A stretch of 64,000 nt of DNA from Lentisphaerae bacterium GWF2_57_35. Lineage in GTDB: Bacteria; Verrucomicrobiota; Kiritimatiellia; CAIQIC01; GWF2-57-35. The stretch lies in assembly GCA_001804865.1 (NCBI GenBank), contig MHBK01000047.1, forward strand, positions 1 to 64,000, given 5' to 3'. The position numbers were made by a program, and so were the translations under genes. Position 1 is the stretch's first letter, and the number at the start of each line of letters is the position of its first letter. The notes under the pieces are model-generated. The model searched no databases. It saw only the letters and a list, made by a program, of their open reading frames with translations, and was not told the DNA's origin. This document shows positions 16,992 to 64,000 of the stretch, piece after piece.

Positions 16992-17661
16992 GGACGTGAT
17001 GGTGGTTGCAATCGATGGCCCGTCGGCCTCCGGCAAATCGACGGTTTCCAGGGAAGTGGCTCTGAAACTGAAGTTTACCTATGTGGATTCCGGATCGCTC
17101 TATCGTGGAATGACCTGGAAATGCATCCGGGAAGGGGTGGACGTCAAGATGCCGGAGTTTGTCATCGACCTGATGAACCGGATGAAGCTGGAATTTTTCG
17201 CGGAAAACCGAGTGGTGCGTTTTACCATCGACGGCGAAGATCCTGGGCAGCAACTGCGATCGGAGCCGGTTCGCGAATGCGTCAGCGATATCGCGGCCAT
17301 TCCCGAGGTTCGGCACTTCATGGTCAATAAACTTCGACAGATGGTTCAATTCGGGGCTATTGTCATGGAAGGCAGGGATATCGGTTCCGTGGTTTTCCCG
17401 GATTCGCCTTTCAAGTTTTACTTGGATGCCGATCCCGAAGAACGCGCGCGCCGGCGGCATGCCGAGTTGATCGAAATGGAAGGGCAGGGCGATGTGGAAA
17501 AGGTTTTGGACTCACTGAAGCGGCGCGATCAAAAGGATACCACGCGCAAAACGGCGCCTCTGCAAATTCCCTTGGGCGCGCATGTGATCAACAGCACTTC
17601 CATGAGCATTGAAGAAGTCGTTTCCTTGATTGTGAAAGAAGTTAGTGCGGCAGGGGGGTAA
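16981..17661 (+). CDS. cmk: Cytidylate kinase
   Basis: This 226-residue protein phosphorylates CMP and dCMP. Walker A is AIDGPSASGKSTVSREVA near residue 10. Further segments are YVDSGSLYRGMTW, the EGRDIGSVVFPDS motif and the DPEERARRRHAE lid region. The ATG at 16981 overlaps aroA. The aroA-cmk pairing is common in bacteria. It is followed directly by plsC, with no gap. Confidence 0.95.
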   Translation: MLNKDVMVVAIDGPSASGKSTVSREVALKLKFTYVDSGSLYRGMTWKCIREGVDVKMPEFVIDLMNRMKLEFFAENRVVRFTIDGEDPGQQLRSEPVRECVSDIAAIPEVRHFMVNKLRQMVQFGAIVMEGRDIGSVVFPDSPFKFYLDADPEERARRRHAELIEMEGQGDVEKVLDSLKRRDQKDTTRKTAPLQIPLGAHVINSTSMSIEEVVSLIVKEVSAAGG

Positions 17662-18300
17662 ATGGCCGAAAAGTTTTTCGATAGTTGGTTTTATTGGATC
17701 TCGCAATTTTCGCTGTTTTGCTGGCTGAAGGTTTGGCTGCGGTTTCGATCGAAGGGATCCGAAAACGTTCCTTCTGAAGGCGGCTGTATTCTGGCGGCAA
17801 ATCACGTCAGTTATCTCGATCCTCCCGTGGTCGGTGCAGGCATTCATCATCGGGTCGTCCATTTTATGGCCCGGGATACGTTGTTCTCCTCCAAACTCGG
17901 GCGTTGGTTCATGACGAATGCCCAATGCATTCCCTTGGATCGGACGAAAGGGGATGTCGGCGCCTTGCGAAAGGCCTTATCGTTTCTAAAAGAAGGCAAG
18001 GTCCTGGCCTTGTTTCCTGAAGGGACACGTTCTGTGGATGGCGAAATGCAGTCTGCCAAGGGGGGGATTGGGTTTCTAATTGCCAAAGCCGGTATACCGG
18101 TAGTTCCGGCCTACATTTCAGGGACTTTTCGATCGTTTCCTCGCCATGCCAGATACGTAAGACCAGGCCGTGTGGAAATTGTGTATGGTAAACCAATTAA
18201 ACCAGAAGAGTTTATGTCGTTCGGTAACGATCGGGAAGCTTATGAAGCGATCGGTAAACTCGTGATGAGACGGATTGCTGAACTCCGATCAAACCCCTGA
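17662..18300 (+). CDS. plsC: 1-acyl-sn-glycerol-3-phosphate acyltransferase
   Basis: This 212-residue protein makes phosphatidic acid from lysophosphatidic acid at the inner membrane. The catalytic HX4D motif is present as NHVSYLD, and the substrate motif as LFPEGTRSVDG. VVPAYISGTF corresponds to the later conserved block. The hydrophobic N-terminal segment (YWISQFSLFCWLKVWL) probably anchors it to the membrane. The start follows the cmk stop codon immediately with a G-rich ribosome site. It is the last gene of the long operon. Confidence 0.93.
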   Translation: MAEKFFDSWFYWISQFSLFCWLKVWLRFRSKGSENVPSEGGCILAANHVSYLDPPVVGAGIHHRVVHFMARDTLFSSKLGRWFMTNAQCIPLDRTKGDVGALRKALSFLKEGKVLALFPEGTRSVDGEMQSAKGGIGFLIAKAGIPVVPAYISGTFRSFPRHARYVRPGRVEIVYGKPIKPEEFMSFGNDREAYEAIGKLVMRRIAELRSNP

Positions 18301-18516
18301 AATGCAACGATTAAAGTTGACATAAACGCGACGCTGCGGCGTTGGTGTCAATATAAATAATCCTCCGTGCGTTACCGGATAAACACTTGACGTTCAAGCT
18401 ATTTTCATCCAACCTCTGAGTATTGGTGTTTCGCACTTATATCTGGTTGGGATGTCGTGTGTTGGCAATGAGTGTGAAGCGATTTAGCGTTCTTTGGCCA
18501 GAAACTTGGGGGATAC
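18301..18516. other. Intergenic region with an imperfect inverted repeat
   Basis: After the plsC stop the arms TTGACA-ta-AACGC (18317-18329) and GCGTT-gg-TGTCAA (18339-18351) can pair around a loop of about nine bases. This could be the operon terminator or an operator. An AT-rich tataaataa follows at once. The rest of the gap shows no gene. Confidence 0.45.
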
Positions 18517-19203
18517 ATGGTACACAATTCGTGGGCAATAGTGATAGCTGGAGGCAAGGGCGAACAGCTCAGTGCAGAGGCGACTATTCCGTATCTCTAC
18601 CTCAACGGCAAACCCGTCCTGACTTACTCGCTTCAAGCGTTCGAACGATGTCCTGAAATCGATGGCGTTATCTTGATCGTGGATAAAGAGCGCATCGAAA
18701 GCGTTACAGGCATGGTGCAAATGTTCGGTTGCTCGAAAGTGAAGAAGCTTATGCCCGCCGCTGTACATCGCCAAGGTTCCGTGATCAGCGCGCTCAAGGA
18801 ATTGGACGAGGAAGTGAAGGTTGTGACCATTCACGATACCTCCCGCCCCTGTATTACCGCTGAAATGATTTCTGAAACCGTCAAGGCGGCCAAACGATAT
18901 GGCAGTGGAGTGGCCGCGGTCGCTCTGAAGGATTATGTAAAAGAAGTTGAAAAAGGTCTTACCGTAAAGAATAGCTTCGAAGACATTTCCTTGTGGTCTG
19001 TTCAATCGCCGCAGACGTTCAAAAAGGATGTTTTACTCAAAGGCTATGAAGCCTTGGCCAAGAAAAAAATCCAGACGGAAGACGATTCGCTGGCCTACGA
19101 AAAAACCAAGGAATCCGTTCATTTGGTCGAATCGAAGCCCTTGAATATCAAAATCCGCACCGTGGACGATCTGAGTTCTTTGACCAAGCTCTTGAAGAGC
19201 TGA
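18517..19203 (+). CDS. IspD-like nucleotidyltransferase with altered active-site motif
   Basis: This 228-residue protein matches IspD (MEP cytidylyltransferase) over its full length. It keeps IVIAGGKG, LNGKPVLTYSLQAFE, IHDTSRPC, SLWSVQSPQTF, TEDDSLAYE and LNIKIRTVDDL. The P-loop-like region that in IspD reads with basic residues and a PKQY(L/F) block is instead GGKGEQLSAEATIPYLYL, so the conserved Arg and the Lys of PKQ are missing. The RADS-type Asp is Gly here (HRQGSV). The gene starts at an ATG behind GGGGGA. It may be a diverged IspD, a related sugar or polyol cytidylyltransferase, or an inactive homologue. A separate true ispD would argue for the latter two. Confidence 0.72.
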   Translation: MVHNSWAIVIAGGKGEQLSAEATIPYLYLNGKPVLTYSLQAFERCPEIDGVILIVDKERIESVTGMVQMFGCSKVKKLMPAAVHRQGSVISALKELDEEVKVVTIHDTSRPCITAEMISETVKAAKRYGSGVAAVALKDYVKEVEKGLTVKNSFEDISLWSVQSPQTFKKDVLLKGYEALAKKKIQTEDDSLAYEKTKESVHLVESKPLNIKIRTVDDLSSLTKLLKS

Positions 19204-52769: not shown

Positions 52770-52904
52770 TTCGGGCCTCGTTGTTAATTTCTTGAAGGCC
52801 ATTCATATCAGAGCGCCACGGGAAAAACGATGTAAATTCATTTGAAATTAAACGGATGCCGGTCAAAAAGAGTAGTAGGCTGCTGTCAGAATGAGAGGTG
52901 GGGT

Positions 52905-54110
52905 GTGAATACAAAGCTTATGGTCTGGTCTGGTTGGTGTTTGCTTTTCGGGTTGTGCTCGGGGTGGGGGGCTGCAACCGAATCGCTGGTGGAACGAAAC
53001 AACGCTTTCGCGTTTGAATTATACCAATCCCTTGGCAATACGCCGGGCAACCTGATTGCGTCTCCCTTCAGTCTTTCCGTCTCCATGAGCATGGTCCATG
53101 CCGGCGCCTCCGGGGAGACGGCCCGGCAAATCTCGGAAACCATGCACTTTACCGGGTTGGATACGGGTGCTGCCTTTCATGAATTCATCTTGCACTTGAA
53201 AGCGATGGAAGAGAAGGCTTCCGTCCAACTGCGCAGCGCCCAATCGCTGTGGGTGGATAAATCGTATGCCTTTCGAGAGCCGTTTCTTAATGCGTTGAAA
53301 ACGTACTATTTTTCGGAGTTGCAGCCGGTCGACTTTATGGCCGATGCCGAGACCGCACGCACAGAAATCAATGCTTGGGTGGAGCAGCAGACGCAGGATA
53401 AAATACGGAATCTCCTGCCGCCGGGAACGCTGAATGCCATGATCCGCCTGGTTCTTGTAAATGCCGTCTACTTCAAGAGTCAATGGGCTCACCCCTTCGA
53501 TCCCTCCCTGACCCGCGAAATGCCTTTCACGATTGTGCCTGACGAGGAAACGAACGTGATGATGATGTCCCGCCAGGGCGATTACTTGTATGCAGAAGAC
53601 GACGAGGCGCAATGGCTCGAATTGCTCTACGCGAACCAGGATTTGTCGATGGTCATCTTGCTGCCCAAAGCGACGAACGGGCTTTCCGGCGTGGAGTCGA
53701 AGCTTACGTTCGCCTATTTCGAAGACGGATTGAAGAAACTCCATTCGAGGGACGTTCAAGTCTTGATGCCCCGCTTCAAGATCGTGTCGTCTTTTGTGCT
53801 CAACGACGTCCTTCAAAGCATGGGCGTCACCGAGGCTTTTCATGTTCAGAAGGCGGATTTTTCGGGTATGTCCAAAAGACCCGGCTTATGGATGTCGGAT
53901 GTAATTCACAAGGTTTTTGTGGAAGTGAACGAAGAGGGAACCGAAGCCGCCGCGGCAACGGGCGCGATCATGTCGCTGACCTCGGTTCCGGCCAGTCCCG
54001 TGGTATTTCAAGCCGATCGTCCCTTTGTTTTTCTTATTCGCGAGCGGGGCCAGGGTGGGATTCTCTTCATGGGCCGGGTCTCCGATCCCACTCGGCTGGC
54101 TGCCGATTAA
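52905..54110 (+). CDS. Bacterial serpin (serine protease inhibitor), exported
   Basis: The GTG at 52905 with GAGAGGTGGG upstream gives 401 residues and a signal peptide (KLMVWSGWCLLFGLCSGWG). The earlier ATG at 52842 would bury it. Serpin signatures are NNAFAFELYQSL, IASPFSLSVSMSMVHAGASG, LVLVNAVYFKSQWAHPFD, FVEVNEEGTEAAAATG and FVFLIRERGQGGILFMGRV. The hinge EEGTEAAAAT is the form found in true inhibitors. By position the scissile bond is probably Thr-Ser within MSLTSVP, suggesting an elastase-like or subtilisin-like target. Such serpins may protect secreted enzymes from foreign proteases. Confidence 0.92.
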   Translation: MNTKLMVWSGWCLLFGLCSGWGAATESLVERNNAFAFELYQSLGNTPGNLIASPFSLSVSMSMVHAGASGETARQISETMHFTGLDTGAAFHEFILHLKAMEEKASVQLRSAQSLWVDKSYAFREPFLNALKTYYFSELQPVDFMADAETARTEINAWVEQQTQDKIRNLLPPGTLNAMIRLVLVNAVYFKSQWAHPFDPSLTREMPFTIVPDEETNVMMMSRQGDYLYAEDDEAQWLELLYANQDLSMVILLPKATNGLSGVESKLTFAYFEDGLKKLHSRDVQVLMPRFKIVSSFVLNDVLQSMGVTEAFHVQKADFSGMSKRPGLWMSDVIHKVFVEVNEEGTEAAAATGAIMSLTSVPASPVVFQADRPFVFLIRERGQGGILFMGRVSDPTRLAAD

Positions 54111-54192: not shown

Positions 54193-54213
54193 TCATTCTT
54201 TTGCATTCATTTT

Positions 54214-54243
54214 GACATCTGTAGACATTAAGAGGACATTAAG
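54214..54243 (+). promoter_or_regulatory. Three GACAT direct repeats, candidate operator
   Basis: gacat occurs at 54214, 54224 and 54235; the last two extend to an identical gacattaag. Spacing of 10 and 11 bp puts them on one DNA face. A consensus -35 TTGACA (54212-54217) overlaps the first. The array lies 53 bp before the HTH-EIIA gene. Confidence 0.5.
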
Positions 54244-54295: not shown

Positions 54296-54985
54296 ATGCA
54301 ATTATCTGTTCGTGATGTATCGAAGCTTCTAAATGTAACGGAAAAAACGATTTATCGATGGATTCAGGGATCGGGGCTGCCAGCCTATCGTGTCGAAGGA
54401 CAGTATCGCATCAACAAGGCTCTGCTGCTTGAGTGGGCGACGACCAAGAAGATCAATATCTCTTCCGACATGTTTCAAGGATCCGAGTCGACGGATGTTT
54501 TGCCCACGCTGGCCGCCTGTCTTCAGACCGGCGGCATTTACTATCGGATTGAAGGTCGCGACAAATCGGCGGTGCTGCGTTCGGTGGTCGATGTAATGAA
54601 GCTGCCCGATGGCGTGGATCGCGAATTCCTTTTCCAGGCGTTGCGGGCGCGCGAGAATCTTCAGTCTACCGGGATTGGCGATGGGGTTGCGATCCCTCAT
54701 GTGCGCAATCCTGCCATATTGGAAGTCGATAAGCCCATGGTTAGCCTCTGTTTTCTAGACCAACCCATTGAGTTTGGCGCGTTGGACGGAAAGCCGGTGC
54801 AGATCCTGTTCGCCTTGATTTCGCCGACCGTCAAAACACATCTGCATTTACTGTCTCGTTTGAGTTTTTCTTTGCAGAACGCCGGCTTCAAGGAAGCGCT
54901 CAAAAAACAGGCCACCCGCGAGGAACTGCTTCGGGAGTTGGAGCGAATTGAAGCCGGCGTGCATGTGCAGGAGGCTGCTCTTTGA
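54296..54985 (+). CDS. Excisionase/MerR-type HTH protein fused to PTS EIIA (fructose/nitrogen type) domain
   Basis: The ATG at 54296 follows GAGG and gives 229 residues. The frame upstream overlaps the serpin gene and is not translated. Residues 1-55 form a DNA-binding helix-turn-helix of the excisionase/MerR kind (SVRDVSKLLNVTEKTIYRWI, LPAYRVEGQYRI). Residues about 70-225 form an EIIA domain like PtsN, with the phospho-His in GIGDGVAIPHVR. No EIIB, EIIC or sigma-54 gene is adjacent. This fits a regulator whose DNA binding or partner contact depends on phosphorylation by the PTS, not a sugar transporter part. The GACAT repeats in front suggest self-regulation. Confidence 0.85.
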   Translation: MQLSVRDVSKLLNVTEKTIYRWIQGSGLPAYRVEGQYRINKALLLEWATTKKINISSDMFQGSESTDVLPTLAACLQTGGIYYRIEGRDKSAVLRSVVDVMKLPDGVDREFLFQALRARENLQSTGIGDGVAIPHVRNPAILEVDKPMVSLCFLDQPIEFGALDGKPVQILFALISPTVKTHLHLLSRLSFSLQNAGFKEALKKQATREELLRELERIEAGVHVQEAAL

Positions 54986-55582: not shown

Positions 55583-56353
55583 TCAGTCTTTAACCCGTCC
55601 CAACAGCCGCAACAACCCATCCAGAATGGTCAACGGATGCGGCGGGCATCCAGGGATGAACAGATCGACGGGAAGCAGGTTGGTTACGCCGTTATTCACT
55701 TCGGCATGGTCCACAAAGGGGCCGCCGGCGATGGCGCAGGCCCCAACGGCGATGACGATCTTCGGATTGGGCACGGCGCGGTAGGTGTCCATCAATGCGC
55801 TTTGCATGTTTTGGGTGACCGGTCCGGTAATCAGGACTCCGTCGGCATGACGGGGCGAGGCGACAAATTGAATTCCGAAACGGCCCAGATCCCAACCCAC
55901 GGTTCCCAAGACGTTGACGTCGGCCTCGCAGGCGTTGCAGCCGCCGGCGCTAACCTGCCGCAGCTTGAGAGAGCGCCCCAGGAGTCGCTTTAAATCTTTC
56001 CCCAGCTCATGAGCCCACTGAAGGGCTTGCCCTTCTTCCACGACGAGTTCTTCGCGCCGGCTGGCGGCCAGGCGATAGTCGTTGCTGTGCCGAATGGCGT
56101 GCTGGGGGCAGGCCTGCACGCAATCGTTGCAAAATAGACATTTCCCGAGATCCACGCGCGGCTTGTGATCGGCGGTAAACTCGATGGCGCCGGTCGGGCA
56201 GCTTTCTGCACAGAGCTGGCACGAGCCCTGGCAGCGCGCGGCGTCAAACAACGGCCGCCCTCGCAAACGGTCAGGCAGCGGAGGCGGAGGCGCATCCGGA
56301 TATCGAATGGTTCGATGTTTTTGATGTAAACGGGCTAGCGTTATTTTAATCAT
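55583..56353 (-). CDS. Ferredoxin-fused 20-kDa small subunit of Ehr/hydrogenase-4-like complex (HyfH/HyfI-like)
   Basis: The ATG at 56353 gives about 256 residues; a GTG-type extension to 56380 overlaps the previous gene. The N-terminal half has two 4Fe-4S sets, CQGSCQLCAESCP and CLFCNDCVQACP. The C-terminal half is NuoB/HycG-like: SAGGCNACEADVNVLG, VAVGACAIAGG and FIPGCPPHP provide the four Cys of the proximal cluster. In E. coli hydrogenase-4 these are separate proteins HyfH and HyfI, so this is a fusion. It should carry electrons between a partner and the large subunit. It is the last gene of the operon, 8 bp after the large-subunit gene. Confidence 0.88.
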   Translation of the reverse strand: MIKITLARLHQKHRTIRYPDAPPPPLPDRLRGRPLFDAARCQGSCQLCAESCPTGAIEFTADHKPRVDLGKCLFCNDCVQACPQHAIRHSNDYRLAASRREELVVEEGQALQWAHELGKDLKRLLGRSLKLRQVSAGGCNACEADVNVLGTVGWDLGRFGIQFVASPRHADGVLITGPVTQNMQSALMDTYRAVPNPKIVIAVGACAIAGGPFVDHAEVNNGVTNLLPVDLFIPGCPPHPLTILDGLLRLLGRVKD

Positions 56354-56361
56354 ATCGGCGC

Positions 56362-57900
56362 CTATAAATCGTGTCCGCAATACGACAGGTTGAAGCTTTT
56401 ATTACACAGCGGGAAATCGGAGATCTGTTGATTTCGCATGGCATAAGCCAGCCCCATCCAGTTATGGAAGGACGGATCGACGATCTTATGGCGCCGGACG
56501 AGGCTCTGGGCGTCGGTCAGCGCCACGTGGCAAAGTTCGCCGCGCCAGCCTTCGACGAGCGAAACGGCCAGCCGGGACGGTTTGAGCGGTCCGGGTTTCG
56601 TCCGGATGGGTCCTGCGGGAATGGCGTTGAGTTGTTCGCGAATGAACTCGATCGATTGCTGGATCTCCAGCCAGCGCACATAGCCGCGGGCAAAGATGTC
56701 GCAGGTGTCCCACGTGGACAAAGGCAGATGCACGAAGCGATAGATGCCCGCCGGATGATCGTGCCGGATGTCCCGATACAAACCGGACGCGCGGGCGGCC
56801 GGGCCGACCATGCCCAGGGTGCGGGCCATTTCCGGCGGCAGCACGCCTTTGCTCTCGAAACGGGCCAGCACGGAGGGCGTATCGAAGAGCAGATTGACCG
56901 CGTTGGCGGTGTCTTTTTCTGCGGCGGTCAGGCGCGTTTGAAGATCTTTAATGCGGGCCGCATCCATGTCGTAACCGACGCCGCCGGGACAAACCATGCC
57001 CCGTCCGAAGCGGCTGCCGCAAAGCAGCGCGCTCATGTTCAGGAAGTCGCCGCGAATGCGTCCGCAATAAGACGCCGTGGGCAGGAAGCCGATATCGTTG
57101 GCCAGCGCGCCCAAATCGCCGACGTGATTGGCCAGCCGCTCGAGTTCCAGGGCAATGCCCCGCAACGATTGCGCCCGAACCGCGCTGAAGCCGCCGGCGA
57201 GCGCTTCGAGCACCTGGCAGTAGGCGGTGGCATGGCCGATGGTGGTGTCGCCGGCCAGCGTCTCGGCATAGTGCAGGCCGCGGCGGCCGGAATTTTGGAG
57301 CAGGGCTTCTTCGATGCCGCGATGCTGATAACCTAGCGCGATTTCCAGGTGGTAGACCTCTTCGCCGTGGCATTGGAAGCGGAAATGGCCGGGCTCGATG
57401 ATGCCCGCATGCACGGGGCCGACGGCCACTTCATGAACGTCGGGGCCGTCCACGCGATAGAAATCGCCCACGCCGGGTAGGATGGCTTGGCCGCGCGGAC
57501 GTTGCCAGGCGTCGCGCTGCGAATCCCAGGATGTCCGATAGCGCACGGGCTTCAGCCAGGGATGTCCCTCCGGGCGCAGGCCGAACTGTTCGGCGATCTC
57601 GCGTTCAAAAAGGTGCAGCGAGGGGCAGCTTGGCGTCAGCGAAGGGAAATGGCCGCCTTCTACTTGGGTGCAAAGCAGGTTCAACTGACTGTTGTTGTCG
57701 TGGGCCAGAACGATGAATAGATCGGTCTGGCCGGGCTGATCGGCGGCAGCGCCGAAAAAGGCCGAGGCGCGTTGCCCGGCGTGCAGCGCCGCCGAGACGA
57801 TGCGTTGAAACGTCTCGAGGTCGTGACGGGGAATCCGGTCGAGCGCGACGGATTGCGCGTTGATCAAGGTGAGCATGTCGGGGGCGGATGGGGTCGTCAT
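56362..57900 (-). CDS. Large subunit of Ehr-type complex (HyfG/NuoCD-like) lacking Ni-binding cysteines
   Basis: This 512-residue protein fuses a NuoC-like part (about 1-150; FEREIAEQFGLRPEGHPWL) to a NuoD/HycE-like part (VGPVHAGIIEPGHFRFQ, IALGYQHRGIEEALL). Where [NiFe] hydrogenases have RxCGxC this protein has ETLAGDTTIGHATAY, with no Cys. At the C-terminus the DPCxxC motif is replaced by DFPLCNKSFNLSYCGHDL. It therefore cannot hold the Ni-Fe centre. The sequence fits energy-converting-hydrogenase-related (Ehr) complexes of unknown substrate. Start overlaps the HyfF-like stop by four bases. Confidence 0.88.
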   Translation of the reverse strand: MTTPSAPDMLTLINAQSVALDRIPRHDLETFQRIVSAALHAGQRASAFFGAAADQPGQTDLFIVLAHDNNSQLNLLCTQVEGGHFPSLTPSCPSLHLFEREIAEQFGLRPEGHPWLKPVRYRTSWDSQRDAWQRPRGQAILPGVGDFYRVDGPDVHEVAVGPVHAGIIEPGHFRFQCHGEEVYHLEIALGYQHRGIEEALLQNSGRRGLHYAETLAGDTTIGHATAYCQVLEALAGGFSAVRAQSLRGIALELERLANHVGDLGALANDIGFLPTASYCGRIRGDFLNMSALLCGSRFGRGMVCPGGVGYDMDAARIKDLQTRLTAAEKDTANAVNLLFDTPSVLARFESKGVLPPEMARTLGMVGPAARASGLYRDIRHDHPAGIYRFVHLPLSTWDTCDIFARGYVRWLEIQQSIEFIREQLNAIPAGPIRTKPGPLKPSRLAVSLVEGWRGELCHVALTDAQSLVRRHKIVDPSFHNWMGLAYAMRNQQISDFPLCNKSFNLSYCGHDL

Positions 57901-59333
57901 GGTTGGACCTCCAGGTAATGGACGGCGTCCATAAGCATATGATTCAACGGCGAGGGAATGGCCAACCCGAGCAACAACGCCAAGCCGAGAAAAACGATCG
58001 GCGAGAACGTGGTGAAAAGGCTGTCGCGATAGGGCGTTTGGGGGGTGGATTCCGGCGCCGAGCCCTGCACGATGCGCAGCACCGTCGCGCCCATGCCGAT
58101 GAAGATGACCAGCAAAAAGAGCAGGAACAAGCCGCTGGCGATCCAGTGCCCGGAATCGATGGCCGCATTGAAAATGGAAAACTCGCTGATGAATGGCGCG
58201 AAGGGCGGCGATCCCGTAATGGCCAGGAAGCCCGTCAGGAACAGACCTCCCGAGAGGGGAAGCCGGCGCAGGGCGCCATGTACGACGCTGGTCTGTGCGC
58301 TGTTGTAGGAGCGGTGGATGTTGCCTGCCGAGAGAAATAGGACGCCTTTGGTCAGGCCGTTGTTGATCATGTGCAGGAGCGTGCCGAAGAGAGCGGCGGC
58401 CCCTCCAAGGCCGAGTCCGAGAATCAGGATGCCCATGTGTTCGACGCTGGAATACGCCAGCATGCGTTTATAGTCCTGCTGCCCGACCATGAAAATGCCC
58501 GCGATGGCCATGGAGAGCAGGCCCATGAAGAGAAGCATCGGCGCCACGTAGGGCCCGTCGCCTGCGGCCAGGCAAATGTGGTAGATCCGCAGGATGCACA
58601 AAAAGGCGCAACTGGTGACCCCGCCGGCCAGCAAGGCGCCGATGGCGCCCGGCGCTTCGCCGTAGGCATCCGGCTTCCAAGTGTGCATCGGGGCCAGGCC
58701 CATTTTGGTTCCATAGCCGACCAGCATCAGCACGAAGGCGGCATGCAGCCAGGGCTTGGAAAGCTGGGGGGCTTCGCGCAGCAGCTCGCCCAACAGCAGG
58801 GTGGGGGGAAGGCCCGAGCGCAGCGAGGCGTAGGCCAGAAAGAACGAGCCCAGCAGCGCCAGCGCGATGCCGACCGATCCGATCAACAGATATTTCCACG
58901 CGGCCTCGATCGAGCGGGGCGTATGGTTGAAGTAGATGAGGGGCGCGGTGCTCAGCGCCGTGGTTTCGATGGCCACCCACATGATGCCCAGATGATGGGC
59001 CCAAGTCAGCAGCGTCATCGCGCTCAAGCCGCTCAACAGGCACGCGCAGACAATGCGATTGGAGCGTTCGTGGCGATAATGCAAATAGCCCACCAGATAG
59101 AACGAGGTGATGAAGTACAGCACGCTGATCAACAACAATACCAGCTTGCCCAGCGGGTCCAAAGCGATCCAGGAGGTGGCGATATTTCCAGCCGGCCGCA
59201 GCAACGCCAGCAGGGTCAATGCCAGATGGACTGCCGTGGTTACGGGCAGAACCCAAGGGCGCAAGCGATTGGATGGGATGGCCAAGGCGACCAGCGCCAT
59301 GCACGCAGGGAACAATAGTAATAGCAAAGTCAT
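57897..59333 (-). CDS. Proton-pumping antiporter-like membrane subunit (HyfF-like)
   Basis: This 478-residue polytopic protein belongs to the NuoL/M/N and MrpD family. It has about fourteen hydrophobic helices. The helix-5 Glu lies in WVAIETTALSTAPLIYF and the helix-7 Lys in GYGTKMGLAPMHTWKPDAY. LAYSSVEHMGILILGLGLGG and FLAITGSPPFAPFISEF are further conserved blocks. It should translocate protons in the membrane arm. Gene order E-F-G matches hyf operons. Confidence 0.9.
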   Translation of the reverse strand: MTLLLLLFPACMALVALAIPSNRLRPWVLPVTTAVHLALTLLALLRPAGNIATSWIALDPLGKLVLLLISVLYFITSFYLVGYLHYRHERSNRIVCACLLSGLSAMTLLTWAHHLGIMWVAIETTALSTAPLIYFNHTPRSIEAAWKYLLIGSVGIALALLGSFFLAYASLRSGLPPTLLLGELLREAPQLSKPWLHAAFVLMLVGYGTKMGLAPMHTWKPDAYGEAPGAIGALLAGGVTSCAFLCILRIYHICLAAGDGPYVAPMLLFMGLLSMAIAGIFMVGQQDYKRMLAYSSVEHMGILILGLGLGGAAALFGTLLHMINNGLTKGVLFLSAGNIHRSYNSAQTSVVHGALRRLPLSGGLFLTGFLAITGSPPFAPFISEFSIFNAAIDSGHWIASGLFLLFLLVIFIGMGATVLRIVQGSAPESTPQTPYRDSLFTTFSPIVFLGLALLLGLAIPSPLNHMLMDAVHYLEVQP

Positions 59334-59337
59334 GGTG

Positions 59338-59979
59338 TTATTCCTTCAGCGCCGCCAAATGGCGCGTATCCAGCGAGGAGAACGCCTGGTTGACGTGATT
59401 GACAATGATGCAGATGACGAAAATACCCACAAACAAATCCAGCAAGATGCCGAGTTCCACGATCAGCGGCATGGCTTCCACCAGCATCATTCCGAAAATG
59501 AAGATGCCGTTTTCGAGCACCAGGTATCCCATGGCTTGCAGAATGGCCTTGGCGCGTGTGGTCAGCAGGATGAACCCGATGAACATCGTCGACAATGCGG
59601 CGGGTACCAGCAACGGAGTCATGTGCTCGTCGGCCAGCGGCAGCTCCCCGGCAAAGATCAGCGCGAATCCCGTGGCGACGGCGCCGAGAATCATCGACGG
59701 CAGAAAGCCGATCAGCGGTTCCACTTCGCGTTTGATATGCACGTCGCGCATCGCCCGCGTGAGCATGAATGGAATGGCAAACCCCTTGAGAAGAATGGCC
59801 GCCGCCGAAGCATACACCGCCGGCAGGCTGGGATGCCCGTGCACCAGCAGCGGCAGGATGCCCAGCAGGATGCCTTGAAACGTGACCGTGCGAATGACCG
59901 TTAAAATACGGCTGGTTCCCAAGGCAAACAAATTGAGAGCCAGGACCAGGACCAGCGCCGCGTTAAGCAATGAATTCAT
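59338..59979 (-). CDS. Hydrogenase-4 component E-like membrane subunit
   Basis: This 213-residue protein with about seven hydrophobic helices matches HyfE in length and position. Its second half resembles NuoK (LVPAALSTMFIGFILLTTRA, GYLVLENGIFIFGMML), with the Glu in LVLENGIF conserved. It probably contributes a proton path between the NuoH-like and antiporter-like subunits. It lies 4 bp before the HyfF-like gene and 6 bp after the HyfC-like gene. Confidence 0.87.
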   Translation of the reverse strand: MNSLLNAALVLVLALNLFALGTSRILTVIRTVTFQGILLGILPLLVHGHPSLPAVYASAAAILLKGFAIPFMLTRAMRDVHIKREVEPLIGFLPSMILGAVATGFALIFAGELPLADEHMTPLLVPAALSTMFIGFILLTTRAKAILQAMGYLVLENGIFIFGMMLVEAMPLIVELGILLDLFVGIFVICIIVNHVNQAFSSLDTRHLAALKE

Positions 59980-59985
59980 GGATAT

Positions 59986-60897
59986 TTACCTCACCAATAA
60001 AACAAACCCGAACCCGCAGAACAGAATCGCCGCGATCAATAAATAGTTCACATGCCGCATTTGCAGGCGGGCCATGACCGATTCCACTACGCCTATGGCG
60101 ACCGCGACGCCCAGCATTTCCCCGACAAACGCCAGCCAATCCAGTCCCGCCCGCCCGCTTTGAAAGGGCGCGACGATGTGCAGGAATACGGAGCTCAGCA
60201 CGAACAACTTGATGGCGGCGCCATAGAGGACAAGGCCTAGCAGCGGACCGCTGTGATCCAGGACCATGACTTCGTGAATCATGGTCAATTCGAGATGGGT
60301 ATTCGGGTCGTCCACCGGGATGCGGCAGTTTTCCGCCAGCAGCAGGATGAACAGTCCCACCGCGACCAGTACCAGCGGCGCGGCCTCCGCCTCCCACCCG
60401 GTGGTAACCAGGGGGGCGTGCAGCAAATCTCCGAGCACCAGCGATCCGGACATTTTGGCCAGCACCAGCAAGGCGAAGAACAAGGCCGGTTCCGACATGC
60501 AGGCGAAGGTCGCTTCGCGCGCGGCGCCCATGCCCTCGAACGCGGATCCCGTATCCAAAGCCGCGGTCGTGGTAAAGAACCGTCCCAGGCCCAGCAGGTA
60601 GGCGAAGAGAATCAGGTCGCCGGTGAAGCCCAGAGGCGCGCGAAATGGGCCCTGGGGGACCAGGATGCCTGCAATGAGGAGCGCCGTCAGGGTGATCACG
60701 GGGGCGGCGGTGAAGACCCAGGTGGTCACCTCGCTGATGACCACATGTTTTCGCGTCAGTTTGAATAAATCGTAATAGGGCTGCAGCAACGGCGGCCCCT
60801 TGCGACCCGCGAAAAGAGCTTTGGTTTTGTTGATGACGCCCAGCAGCAGCGGGGGCATCCCCAGCAGCAGCGCGATGTGAATGAAGATATCCCTCAT
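59986..60897 (-). CDS. NuoH/HyfC-like membrane subunit
   Basis: This 303-residue protein has about eight hydrophobic helices and the NuoH-type loops KALFAGRKGPPLLQPYYDLFKL (read as its AGRKGPPLLQPYYD core) and ENCRIPVDDPNTHLELTMIHE. In complex I these loops form the quinone-channel and the link to the hydrophilic arm. Here they show that the membrane arm is complete even though the large subunit lacks a Ni site. The start overlaps the HyfB-like stop by four bases. Confidence 0.92.
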   Translation of the reverse strand: MRDIFIHIALLLGMPPLLLGVINKTKALFAGRKGPPLLQPYYDLFKLTRKHVVISEVTTWVFTAAPVITLTALLIAGILVPQGPFRAPLGFTGDLILFAYLLGLGRFFTTTAALDTGSAFEGMGAAREATFACMSEPALFFALLVLAKMSGSLVLGDLLHAPLVTTGWEAEAAPLVLVAVGLFILLLAENCRIPVDDPNTHLELTMIHEVMVLDHSGPLLGLVLYGAAIKLFVLSSVFLHIVAPFQSGRAGLDWLAFVGEMLGVAVAIGVVESVMARLQMRHVNYLLIAAILFCGFGFVLLVR

Positions 60898-62900
60898 GAC
60901 TTATTTCCTATCGTTTCCCAAATCAACAACAGCAGGACCATGACCACGATGTACAAAAGATAAATCTGCACGCGCCCCTGTTGCAGGAGCCGTAAACGGG
61001 GCAGCAGCCGCCCGGTCCAGCGGAAAAAAGGCAGGACGAAGTGGTCCAAGAGGGTATCCGGCACGGTGGTCGAGAAAAAGCCTGCGGAAGGCAACGGAGC
61101 TTGGATCTTGGGCGCTTTGGTTTGCGGCCACAAGGCCCAGGCAAAGAGCGCAACGATCATCTGTCCGAACGAAGTAGACGTATACTGCATGCGCGAAGTC
61201 GGACGGGCGTAGCCGCAGCTCCAGGTGCCGACGCCGCAAACGGAACGGGTGCGCAACCGCAGCCGCAGCAGCAAGAATCCGATGCCGGCGGCGCCCAATA
61301 AAACCAGGGCGATTCCGCCGATCCAGCGCAACGGAACATAACTCAGCAGTGAGGCGGCCGATGCGGCATCGGCATCCAGCCATTGGCTTGCGGCTTGTTG
61401 GATCAGCGGCATGACGTATTGAGGCGCGCAGCCAACGATCGTGCAGCCGGCGGCCAGCAGTAGCATCGGACCGAGCTGGCTAAGGTCCGGATCATGAGGC
61501 TCGTGGGCCAGCGGCTGGCGCGACACGCCCAGAAAGGTCGTACTTAATGCGTTCACGAAACAGGCCAGGGCCAAGGCCCCGATCGCAGCCAGTGCGATGG
61601 CGCCCAAGGCGGCGGTCGGCCAGGCCGCACCGCCGGATGCCGAGACCTGAAGACTGCCGAAAAAGCCCAGGTACATCAGCCACTCGCTGACGAATCCATT
61701 GAAGGGCGGCAACGCGCAGATGGCCACGGCGCCCAGCAGAAACAAAGTCGAGGTCACGGGCATGTGCCGGGCCAAGCCGCCCATGCGGTTCATTTCGCGG
61801 GTATGCGTCGCATGGATCACAACGCCGGAATTCAGGAAGAGCAGGGACTTGAACAAGCTGTGATTCCACAGGTGCAGCAGCGCGCCGCCGAGGCCCAGCA
61901 CGACAAAGTCGGCCCGGTGCAGCGTGCGACCCAGGCTCGCCAGTCCGATGCCCATGACAATGATGCCGATATTCTCGATGCTGCTATAGGCCAGCAGGCG
62001 TTTGATGTCGCTTTGTCCGATCGCGAAGGCGATGCCCAGAATCCCGGCGCCTGCGCCGAGGGCCAGCAGCAAGCCGCCATGCCACGTTTCCAGCGGCGGC
62101 AGAAGGGCGATTAATCGAACGATGCCGTAGATGCCCATTTTCAGCATCACTCCCGACATGACCGCCGAAACGTGGCTGGGCGCGTTGGCATGCGCGCCGG
62201 GCAACCACACGTGCAGGGGCATGACCCCGGCTTTAAATCCAAAACCTATTAACGTAAGTAGAAAAAGAATCGTAGTCAGCGTGGGAGACAGGGCTCCGGT
62301 CTCCACGGCGGACAAAGCAAAAGAGCCGGTAATCTTTTTCAGCAGCACGAAAAGCGCGAACAGGCACAGCGTACCTGAGTGGGTGGCCACCAGGTAAATC
62401 CACCCCGCGCGCCGTACGGCGGCATTTTCGTTTTCGGTGGTGGCGAGGAAGAAGGCCGAGACGGCCATGACTTCCCAAGCCATCAATAACAATACGGAAT
62501 CGCGCGCAACGACCACCATCAGCATGGCGCCGGCGAGCAGCCCATAGAAAAGTCCCAGCCCTCGTCCGTTATCCGGATGATCCGCCTGCCGCCAGTAGCC
62601 CAGTCCGTAGATCGCGCCCAGCATGGGCACAAGCAGAATGGGTATTAAAAAGACGGCGCTGAGCGCATCCAGCCCGATGGAGAAGCGTCCCCAGGGCAGC
62701 GTCCACGGAAGAGAAACGGCCTCGTTTTGCGGCGCGGAGAGCGAGAGAAATACGCCGTACCCGCCGATCGCGCTGCCCAGGATCATCAGGGCGGCCGACA
62801 GCCGTTGCGCGGCGCAGGATCGCCGCGAAAAGAAACACGCCGGCAAGCCGCTAAAGGCCAGCACCGCCGCTGCCACGACAATAAGCCAGAGTCCCGTCAT
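60894..62900 (-). CDS. HyfB-like antiporter-type membrane subunit
   Basis: The ATG at 62900 has AGGAG upstream and gives 668 residues, close to E. coli HyfB. The frame open to 63056 is a hydrophilic artefact crossing the hairpin region. Conserved sites are the helix-5 Glu (LLMAWEVMAVSAFFLA), the helix-7 Lys (GFGFKAGVMPLHVWLPGAH) and LAYSSIENIGIIVMGIG. The C-terminal extension has PFFRWTGRLLPRLRLLQQG and a last helix (IYLLYIVVMVLLLLIW), as in HyfB. A second paralogue lies directly upstream. Confidence 0.9.
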   Translation of the reverse strand: MTGLWLIVVAAAVLAFSGLPACFFSRRSCAAQRLSAALMILGSAIGGYGVFLSLSAPQNEAVSLPWTLPWGRFSIGLDALSAVFLIPILLVPMLGAIYGLGYWRQADHPDNGRGLGLFYGLLAGAMLMVVVARDSVLLLMAWEVMAVSAFFLATTENENAAVRRAGWIYLVATHSGTLCLFALFVLLKKITGSFALSAVETGALSPTLTTILFLLTLIGFGFKAGVMPLHVWLPGAHANAPSHVSAVMSGVMLKMGIYGIVRLIALLPPLETWHGGLLLALGAGAGILGIAFAIGQSDIKRLLAYSSIENIGIIVMGIGLASLGRTLHRADFVVLGLGGALLHLWNHSLFKSLLFLNSGVVIHATHTREMNRMGGLARHMPVTSTLFLLGAVAICALPPFNGFVSEWLMYLGFFGSLQVSASGGAAWPTAALGAIALAAIGALALACFVNALSTTFLGVSRQPLAHEPHDPDLSQLGPMLLLAAGCTIVGCAPQYVMPLIQQAASQWLDADAASAASLLSYVPLRWIGGIALVLLGAAGIGFLLLRLRLRTRSVCGVGTWSCGYARPTSRMQYTSTSFGQMIVALFAWALWPQTKAPKIQAPLPSAGFFSTTVPDTLLDHFVLPFFRWTGRLLPRLRLLQQGRVQIYLLYIVVMVLLLLIWETIGNKS

Positions 62901-62936
62901 GAGAAGATCTCCTGACGATGACGGGCTGTAAGAAGC

Positions 62937-62991
62937 GGTCCGCGAGGCCGCGGACCCTCCCGTATTGGGAGGGACGGCGGCCTCGCCGTCC
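62937..62991. repeat. Divergent pair of GGGAGGG hairpin units between two hyfB-like genes
   Basis: Minus unit 62961-62937 and plus unit 62967-62991 are each 25 bp: GGGAGGG, five-base arm, loop GGCCTC, complementary arm, CC. The arms are TCCGC with GCGGA in one and ACGGC with GCCGT in the other. The two gggag ends also pair around gtatt, so three adjacent hairpins can form within the 133-bp gap 62901-63033. Confidence 0.85.
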
Positions 62992-63033
62992 TTCTGCTTC
63001 GTGTTGAGATGTTCAGCTTGTGCATCATGCTTT

Positions 63034-64000
63034 TTACCTGCTGAATAATCGCTCAATCAATCGATGTATGGGCATCGTCCAGATGAAGAGGGCGATGACG
63101 GCGACGAGCACATAAATCAGGTAGTGATGCGTAAAGCCCTGGTGAAGCGGGCGGAATTCCAGGAAGGATTGCTTTACAAAACGGGCAATGGGAAGGATTT
63201 GTCGATCCAGTATCGGTTCGTCCTGATGGGTTTCAAAGCGCGCGGAGCCCGTGAAGAGGGGCTTGGTGCTTGGATAATGAATGCGAGGCCGCAACGCCCA
63301 GCGAAACAAGCCCAGAATCGTATGAGCGAAGGACGAGGCGGTGTACTGCATGCGGGCCGTGGGCGCCGCATAGCCGCATGACCACGTGATCGTTCGTTCG
63401 ATCCCGCGCCGTTTAAGCAGCCGGGACAGGAGGAAAAACGAGATCAGGCCGCCGGCTGCCAGCGCGAGGCCAAACAAGGAAATGGATGACAGCGGCGCCA
63501 TCGAGGCCAACAAGCCCGGGAAGGGAATTGAGGGCGCCGGATTCCATGCGCGTAGAGCAACTTCGAGGGCCGGTACGATCAGCATGGGCGCGAGGCCGAT
63601 GAGGATGCATCCCACCGCCAAAACCAGCATGGGCGTCCGCATGGAAAGCGGGGCTTCCTGCACCGTGGAGAGCTCGATGGATCGCGGACTGCCCAGGAAC
63701 ATGACGCCGTACGCCTTGACGAAGCAAGCCAGCGCCAAGGCGCCGATCAAGGCCAGGATGGGGGCGGCCAACGCCACCGAGGTCCAGCCGTTGTGCGCTT
63801 GCTGAGCCGTATGCAGCAGGCCCAGGTAAATGAACCATTCGCTCACAAATCCATTGAGAGGCGGCAAGCCGCAAATAGCCGCCGCGCCAATGAGGAAAAA
63901 GAAGGCCGTGTACGGCATTCGTTTGGCCAGTCCGCCCCATCGATCGAGCTGGCGCGTGTGGGTCGCATGCACGACCGCGCCGGCGCTGAGGAAGAGTAGC
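63034..64000 (-). CDS. Second HyfB-like subunit, N-terminal part beyond window edge
   Basis: The frame is open to the window edge; upstream of the GTG at 63972 it continues as LLFLSAGAVVHATHTRQ, matching the same place in the neighbour (NSGVVIHATHTRE). So this is the C-terminal half of another NuoL/HyfB-type protein. It shares AAAICGLPPLNGFVSEWFIYLG and TARMQYTASSFAHTILGLF with the 60894-62900 product and also ends in a single helix (HYLIYVLVAVIALFIW). Two HyfB-like proteins in one operon imply a membrane arm with at least three antiporter-like subunits. Confidence 0.9.
   Translation of the reverse strand, partial: LLFLSAGAVVHATHTRQLDRWGGLAKRMPYTAFFFLIGAAAICGLPPLNGFVSEWFIYLGLLHTAQQAHNGWTSVALAAPILALIGALALACFVKAYGVMFLGSPRSIELSTVQEAPLSMRTPMLVLAVGCILIGLAPMLIVPALEVALRAWNPAPSIPFPGLLASMAPLSSISLFGLALAAGGLISFFLLSRLLKRRGIERTITWSCGYAAPTARMQYTASSFAHTILGLFRWALRPRIHYPSTKPLFTGSARFETHQDEPILDRQILPIARFVKQSFLEFRPLHQGFTHHYLIYVLVAVIALFIWTMPIHRLIERLFSR

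Follow-up and report, generated by a model that had tools for sequence, protein, structure and literature searches.

What does a complex built like hydrogenase 4 do when its large subunit holds no Ni-Fe site, from what would it draw electrons, and what sets its expression? These questions are raised by an intact seven-gene Hyf-like complex encoded on the minus strand, nt 55583-64000, of the DNA analysed here (the window; 64,000 nt of the 78,182-bp contig C47, MHBK01000047.1, in the 5.05-Mb, 93% complete draft genome of Lentisphaerae bacterium GWF2_57_35). The operon almost certainly encodes an energy-converting-hydrogenase-related (Ehr) complex, an already known type of pump that is found in many phyla and whose function is still open in the literature. 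With a probability of roughly 0.55, we read it as a ferredoxin-fed ion pump that is controlled by the phosphotransferase system (PTS) and has an acceptor other than quinone or protons. A gene for a helix-turn-helix (HTH) protein with a PTS EIIA domain (HTH-EIIA) is the sole conserved neighbour of the ehr operon.

Open reading frame (ORF) calls, made without a trained gene finder, and Pfam and NCBIfam assignments agreed with the subunit set listed in a preliminary description of the window. The operon runs past the window edge to contig position 65783, the order on the minus strand from 65783 to 55583 being HTH-EIIA, HyfB1, HyfB2, HyfC, HyfE, HyfF, the HyfG-like large subunit, and the fused HyfH/HyfI-like small subunit. 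Adjacent genes are joined by overlaps or gaps of a few bases, the gap between HTH-EIIA and HyfB1 being 23 bp.

contig 65088-65783, minus strand: HTH plus PTS-EIIA gene, outside the window
63034..64000, minus strand: HyfB-like 1, antiporter-like, C-terminal part with Glu146, Lys226 and Glu409 kept; cut by the window, extends to contig 65064 (676 aa in full)
60894..63056, minus strand: HyfB-like 2, antiporter-like, with Glu195, Lys275 and Glu458 kept; exact start uncertain (NCBIfam hydrogenase 4 subunit B)
59986..60897, minus strand: EhrB, HyfC/NuoH-like membrane anchor with conserved acidic path residues (Pfam NADHdh; conserved charged columns)
59338..59979, minus strand: EhrC, HyfE-like membrane subunit (NCBIfam hydrogenase 4 membrane subunit)
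57897..59333, minus strand: EhrD, HyfF-like antiporter-like subunit with Glu123, Lys210 and Glu384 kept (Pfam/NCBIfam, alignment)
56362..57900, minus strand: EhrL, HycE-like large subunit with 30-kDa and 49-kDa domains (Pfam Complex1_49kDa/30kDa)
55583..56380, minus strand: EhrS, N-terminal 8-Cys (2x[4Fe-4S]) HyfH-like ferredoxin domain joined to a NuoB/HycG-like small subunit (Pfam Fer4 and Oxidored_q6); its start codon is probably ATG 56353 and not TTG 56380

The loss of the Ni-Fe site, claimed in the preliminary description, was borne out by an alignment of 101 Ehr, 15 [NiFe] and 6 NuoD sequences. The window EhrL reads E-T-L-A-G-D-T-T at the RxCGxC position and N-L-S-Y-C-G at the C-terminal DPCxxC, with Ala216, Thr219, Ser506 and Gly509 in place of the HycE ligands Cys 241, 244, 531 and 534. 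The replacements recur across Ehr (Ala in 94, Thr in 92, Ser in 101 and Gly in 101 of 101), and a single Ni-Fe Cys was retained in one sequence, at the first site. His38 and Tyr87 of Nqo4, which keep the quinone head in place in complex I (PMC7684303), correspond to Ile and Gly in all 101 sequences (Ile168 and Gly217 in the window). The proton donor Glu193, canopy Arg478, and His284 and Glu437 of the lateral path, as described for HycE (PMC9474812), have kept equivalents in 101/101 Ehr, and that of Arg395 is kept in 99/101; the beta1-beta2 loop Glu is Glu169 in the window EhrL. The canopy residue Asp529, conserved in the aligned [NiFe] and complex I sequences, is Asn in 100/101 Ehr. These uniform replacements, together with the kept proton-handling residues, thus indicate a pocket remodelled in one specific way across phyla, not eroded. 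An AlphaFold2 model of EhrL (predicted local distance difference test score 90.5, the beta1-beta2 loop being the low-confidence stretch) matched HycE of formate hydrogenlyase (FHL), 7z0s_E, best among PDB structures (TM-score 0.87), followed by NuoCD. Cys 499 and 508 near the C-terminus were considered as a new metal site and rejected, one of them being Asn, Ala or Ser in several homologues.

An assembly error at the motif, which would have undone the description, was rejected since orthologues carry matching residues: full-length orthologues of 51% to 76% identity with identical motifs were present in 26 of 55 related genomes, and public genomes gave more than 570 matches. That Ehr is a decaying, non-functional hydrogenase has been stated for Geobacter, where it was described as non-functional and drifting (PMC13194489), and the missing Ni-Fe site would suit such a fate. 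Against it stand the identical replacement residues across phyla, the intact operons, and dN/dS values for close pairs of 0.05-0.20 (0.05 between Geobacteraceae, 0.14-0.20 within the window's order), from which Ehr is judged to be under purifying selection and not a relic. The published statement is thus contradicted by pocket conservation and dN/dS, and we give decay hardly any credence.

The Ehr assignment likewise held in a large-subunit tree of 62 sequences, a quick tree without bootstrap from which the G. sulfurreducens Ehr (GSU0739-45) and MbsL sequences were left out. A branch with an SH-like approximate likelihood ratio (SH-aLRT) support of 100 separated all 39 Ehr rows from E. coli HycE and HyfG, MbhL, the energy-converting hydrogenase (Ech; contig C27) and membrane-bound hydrogenase (MBH)-like (contig C45) paralogues of the own genome, and NuoD; the tree gives no rooted position for Ehr with respect to HycE/HyfG. 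The Ehr clade included Geobacter argillaceus and Geomonas edaphica, and the closest named relatives of the window EhrL were Kiritimatiellales, so that the host is probably a Kiritimatiellota. Besides the separate clade and the four missing Ni-Fe cysteines, the window operon has the NuoH-, HyfE-, HyfF- and HyfB-like membrane subunits and the small subunit of Ehr, for which ion translocation and redox activity are predicted from homology. It differs from group 4 [NiFe] hydrogenases, whose RxCGxC and DPCxxC motifs are carried by the C45 and C27 paralogues and whose assembly depends on Hyp proteins, and from complex I (NDH-1) in lacking the quinone His/Tyr and the tandem Cys of NuoB. In one Verrucomicrobia genome (L098:12374-19889), a second, divergent Ehr-like cluster with subunits 31% to 42% identical directly follows the first; its large subunit (17613-19028; C-terminus NKSFNLSYSG) forms the deepest Ehr branch.

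All 12 Fe-S cysteines are present in EhrS and conserved in most of 99 homologues, the proximal-cluster motif being a HycG-like CxxC (CNAC) where NuoB has a tandem CC. Likewise, the glutamates of transmembrane helices (TM) 5 and 12 and the TM7 lysine occur in each of the three antiporter-like subunits and in nearly all sampled homologues, so that the earlier claim of kept proton-path and iron-sulfur residues stands. These features bear on whether Ehr is a sulfane-sulfur (polysulfide) reductase like the membrane-bound MBS complex of Pyrococcus, its proximal cluster cleaving polysulfide in the emptied pocket and thereby driving the pump. MBS is a characterised complex of the superfamily without Ni-Fe and quinone residues, and Ehr has both losses; however, the proximal cluster of MBS has three Cys, its motif being shorter by three residues than that of MBH, and the beta1-beta2 loop Glu of MbhL is missing from MBS (PMC7684303), whereas the full hydrogenase CxxC motif is found in Ehr and the loop Glu in 101/101 sequences. 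We regard this alternative as unlikely. A larger reaction energy span goes with more pumping modules in the order MBH, MBS, complex I (PMC7684303); as a weak hint, three antiporter-like subunits would be in line with a reaction that releases more energy than proton reduction.

The preliminary description had taken the ferredoxin fusion and the second HyfB gene as informative extras, which overrated both. In 98 of the 100 loci that leave space for it, the fused gene comes after that of the large subunit, and a second HyfB gene was present in 16 of 78, EhrA-1 and EhrA-2 being listed for Geobacter as well (PMC7894505, PMC13194489); both are ordinary Ehr traits, not peculiar to the window genome. 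The more informative neighbour is the HTH-EIIA gene, which lay beyond the first view of the window. It marks the operon start that inspection upstream of position 64,000 was expected to reveal, but the redox partner also sought there was missing. Among 766 neighbouring ORFs clustered from about 100 Ehr loci, no recurrent redox-partner family was found, and only promiscuous NtrC-type regulators recurred. This bears on a formate dehydrogenase-Ehr complex, in which formate would be the electron source by an FHL-like exchange of modules. Such a complex has been proposed for Margulisbacteria (PMC6349859), Ehr subunits are up in Geobacter sulfurreducens grown on formate (PMC7894505), and FHL HycE is what EhrL resembles most, in sequence as well as in fold. 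Nevertheless, neither fdhA nor nuoE/F-like or HycB-like genes were recurrent beside these loci, and a HyfA/HycB-type adaptor gene is absent from the window operon, which makes formate coupling quite unlikely.

A ferredoxin:quinone oxidoreductase, that is, a minimal complex I, would fit the complete complex-I-like core and the three antiporter-like subunits. The genomes were surveyed for quinone synthesis and maturation genes (the own genome and 55 related ones, 27 of them Ehr-bearing), absences depending on draft completeness. MenD above the cut-off or MqnA/D occurred in 5 of the 27 (G004, G006, G012, G036 and G052), which can make menaquinone, and a MenD-like gene of about 180 bits, below the cut-off, in G016 and G017. 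Neither MenD nor MqnA/D was found in the remaining 20, of which 12, including the window genome, reach a completeness of 92% or more and do not exceed 5% contamination; weak MenD matches of 60-90 bits, below the cut-off, were taken as other thiamine diphosphate enzymes, and UbiA was dropped as a quinone marker because it was found everywhere. Since so many near-complete owners lack both pathways, quinone is unlikely as a general Ehr acceptor, and with the quinone His/Tyr replaced throughout Ehr this form of complex I is very improbable. The own genome has only three NuoH-like subunits, all assigned (Ech, MBH-like and Ehr), and therefore no complete respiratory complex I was seen in the assembly. 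An isolated nuoB-nuoCD pair (L008:6252-8575, contig C38, minus strand; 46% to 51% identical to E. coli), lying near electron-transfer-flavoprotein and acyl-CoA dehydrogenase genes in this assembly without a complex I type NuoH, may be an orphan or truncated complex I.

Hydrogenase maturation genes had been expected to be unnecessary, and the survey agreed. No hyp genes were found near the window operon, and HypD was not found in four Ehr-bearing genomes (G042, G043, G046 and G055; 92% to 97% complete). The single HypD of the own genome is explained by two genuine group 4 [NiFe] hydrogenases elsewhere, an MBH-like one with Mrp-type subunits (L009, C45) and an Ech (L010, C27). In G042 (97% complete), an Ech large subunit with intact Ni-Fe motifs (L137) was observed, yet no HypD.

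Conservation of the HTH-EIIA gene was counted over the 78 loci in which 1.5 kb or more precede the first HyfB gene; the 80 public loci used were the best-scoring ones and not a random sample, and L084 and L155 are one and the same stretch. The gene stands beside the operon in 62 of the 78: in 53 it is the immediate upstream neighbour and has the same orientation, and in another 9 it lies no more than 6 kb away. This linkage spans about a dozen phyla, including Planctomycetota, Verrucomicrobiota, the window's class, Thermodesulfobacteriota, Myxococcota, Spirochaetota, Acidobacteriota, Omnitrophota, Latescibacterota and Zixibacteria. In an unbiased search of the 56 genomes, close homologues (E <1e-57) were present in 24 of the 27 Ehr-bearing ones, and G046 has a broken copy at Ehr. 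In a tree, unlinked close copies formed one clade nested among linked ones, bar one singleton. The phospho-His of EIIA is kept in 71/73 proteins, and HPr and enzyme I genes are adjacent on contig C65 of the own genome. Two other arrangements were observed: in Verrucomicrobiota-type loci (L098:6276-6947, L101, L106, L118 and L161), a divergent HTH-EIIA (about 25% identical) with phospho-His retained is embedded in the operon, flanked by a HyfB gene and the subunit gene that comes next, and in Geobacteraceae and a relative (L091:1470-4156 and L119:1552-4223), HTH-EIIA is divergently paired with a lone HyfB gene away from the other ehr genes.

Enriched spaced pairs were sought in the 250 bp ahead of the 53 EIIA genes, with shuffles as control. 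The top patterns, TGTCC-N5-TGTCC and the one-base-shifted TGTCC-N4-TTGTC, occurred in 12-13 sequences, as against at most 3 for any pattern in the shuffles. With up to one mismatch, TGTCC-N5-TGTCC was present in 24 of the 53 loci (1.5 expected from random windows of those loci) and in none of 29 loci without an upstream EIIA; since the repeat was found and counted on identical loci, the exact enrichment is somewhat optimistic, the 0/29 control and the unlinked copies being independent of this. In most cases 40-75 bp separate the repeat from the EIIA start, and a TTGACA-like -35 element begins about 28 bp ahead of it, which would place the repeat where transcription is expected to start. Since 6 unlinked EIIA genes have it upstream as well, the repeat belongs to the regulator gene; it was not seen at the L091 and L119 pairs. 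In the window contig it occurs ahead of both HTH-EIIA genes.

contig 65817-65831: operator-like repeat TGTCCTCAAATGTCA, outside the window, directly following a TATATT -10 candidate
54296..54985, plus strand: second HTH (HTH_17) plus PTS_EIIA_2 gene on the opposite flank, 58% identical to the upstream copy (Pfam; tree)
54213..54227, minus strand: operator-like repeat TGTCTACAGATGTCA, 1 mismatch, 69 bp ahead of the second HTH-EIIA start

The place and orientation of the second repeat are as in relatives, and only its position supports it, the count of such sites across the window being at chance. The own genome has 9 exact matches, of which the one before HTH-EIIA alone clearly precedes a gene start; the others, in or among unrelated ORFs, were rejected as operators. 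A full-length serpin gene (52842-54110; Pfam E 1e-115) lies beside the second HTH-EIIA gene. HTH-EIIA would be the protein that binds the repeat. The linkage and the conserved operator-like repeat are new: no report of Ehr linkage with PTS/EIIA was found in the literature covered, which leaves out most subscription journals.

An EIIA beside antiporter-like subunits could also make Ehr an Mrp-like ion transporter, gated by redox state and for the most part non-catalytic, in which the hydrogenase arm senses the redox state of its clusters and EIIA sets activity. Antiporter-like subunits predominate in Ehr, there is a precedent for an antiporter being bound and inhibited by an EIIA protein (PtsN-YcgO; PMC11808508), and EIIA is at times paired with a lone HyfB gene. 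But a mere sensor would hardly need 12 Fe-S cysteines and many strongly constrained pocket residues, and the DNA-binding domain on EIIA and the promoter repeat point to transcription, so that we find a gated transporter rather improbable.

According to the preferred reading, Ehr would derive from a group 4 hydrogenase and work as an ion pump of the complex I kind, driven by redox chemistry. Its low-potential electron donor would most likely be reduced ferredoxin, and the electrons would enter at the fused 2x[4Fe-4S] domain and pass over the hydrogenase-type proximal [4Fe-4S] cluster to the remodelled large-subunit pocket. The acceptor reduced there would be neither protons, as no Ni-Fe is present, nor, in most owners, quinone; the proton-handling frame around the pocket (beta1-beta2 loop Glu, canopy Arg, and lateral His/Arg/Glu path) is retained. 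The energy released would be used by the NuoH-like subunit and the antiporter-like subunits, two or three in number, to transfer ions. The co-transcribed HTH-EIIA would read the PTS phosphorelay (phosphoenolpyruvate/pyruvate state) and set ehr expression, acting on a TGTCC-N5-TGTCC operator that lies in its own promoter, right after the -10.

Several points weigh against this reading. Genes for donor and acceptor are not encoded near Ehr loci, so the electron route, like the donor, direction and ion, is drawn from homology, and no biochemistry on any Ehr complex was found in the literature covered. Owners could scavenge quinone or synthesize it by another route. HTH-EIIA is not strictly tied to Ehr, as 7 of 29 Ehr-less genomes have a close, unlinked homologue and 16 of the 78 Ehr loci have none nearby. 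About half of the EIIA loci (e.g., Geobacteraceae) showed no such repeat, which may have diverged there or may serve another protein. Somewhat short of even odds, Ehr may add a third functional branch to the complex I superfamily, with its own conserved non-hydrogen, non-quinone active site, and may typically be PTS-controlled, in many phyla, via an autoregulated HTH-EIIA and TGTCC-N5-TGTCC. Candidate functions removed or weakened by these results include H2 metabolism, decay, obligatory quinone reduction, and a linked formate dehydrogenase. Two handles not found in the literature covered, the dedicated regulator HTH-EIIA and the DNA site at which it probably acts, are usable in culturable Geobacter, Geomonas and related bacteria and would reveal the metabolic state in which the pump is used.

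Among known systems, the named Geobacter Ehr (GSU0739-0745; EhrA-1, EhrA-2, EhrB, EhrC, EhrL and EhrS; PMC7894505, PMC13194489) resembles the window operon in the kinds of subunits and the loss of Ni-Fe ligands, the large subunits of Geobacter/Geomonas orthologues being 55% to 57% identical to the window EhrL and in a common clade. The window copy differs in having tandem B1 and B2 genes and two HTH-EIIA genes, whereas in some Geobacteraceae EIIA is divergent from the remaining operon; Ehr is known also from Margulisbacteria, Nitrospira and the candidate phyla radiation (CPR). Nearest in sequence and solved structure are E. coli FHL and hydrogenase 4 (HycE and HyfG; group 4a), which share the 30-kDa plus 49-kDa fusion but, unlike Ehr, have RxCGxC and DPCxxC; E. 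coli Hyf has separate HyfH and HyfI, in addition to HyfA, HyfD, HyfJ and the regulator HyfR, and no EIIA regulator. Pyrococcus MBS is similar in its lost Ni-Fe, absent quinone residues and antiporter-like subunits, and differs in the shortened proximal-cluster motif and the missing beta1-beta2 Glu (PMC7684303), Ehr keeping both the CxxC and the Glu. PtsN (EIIA-Ntr) shares with HTH-EIIA a PTS_EIIA_2 domain with phospho-His and acts on the antiporter YcgO through protein-protein contact (PMC11808508), whereas the N-terminal HTH_17 DNA-binding domain and the ehr linkage belong to HTH-EIIA.

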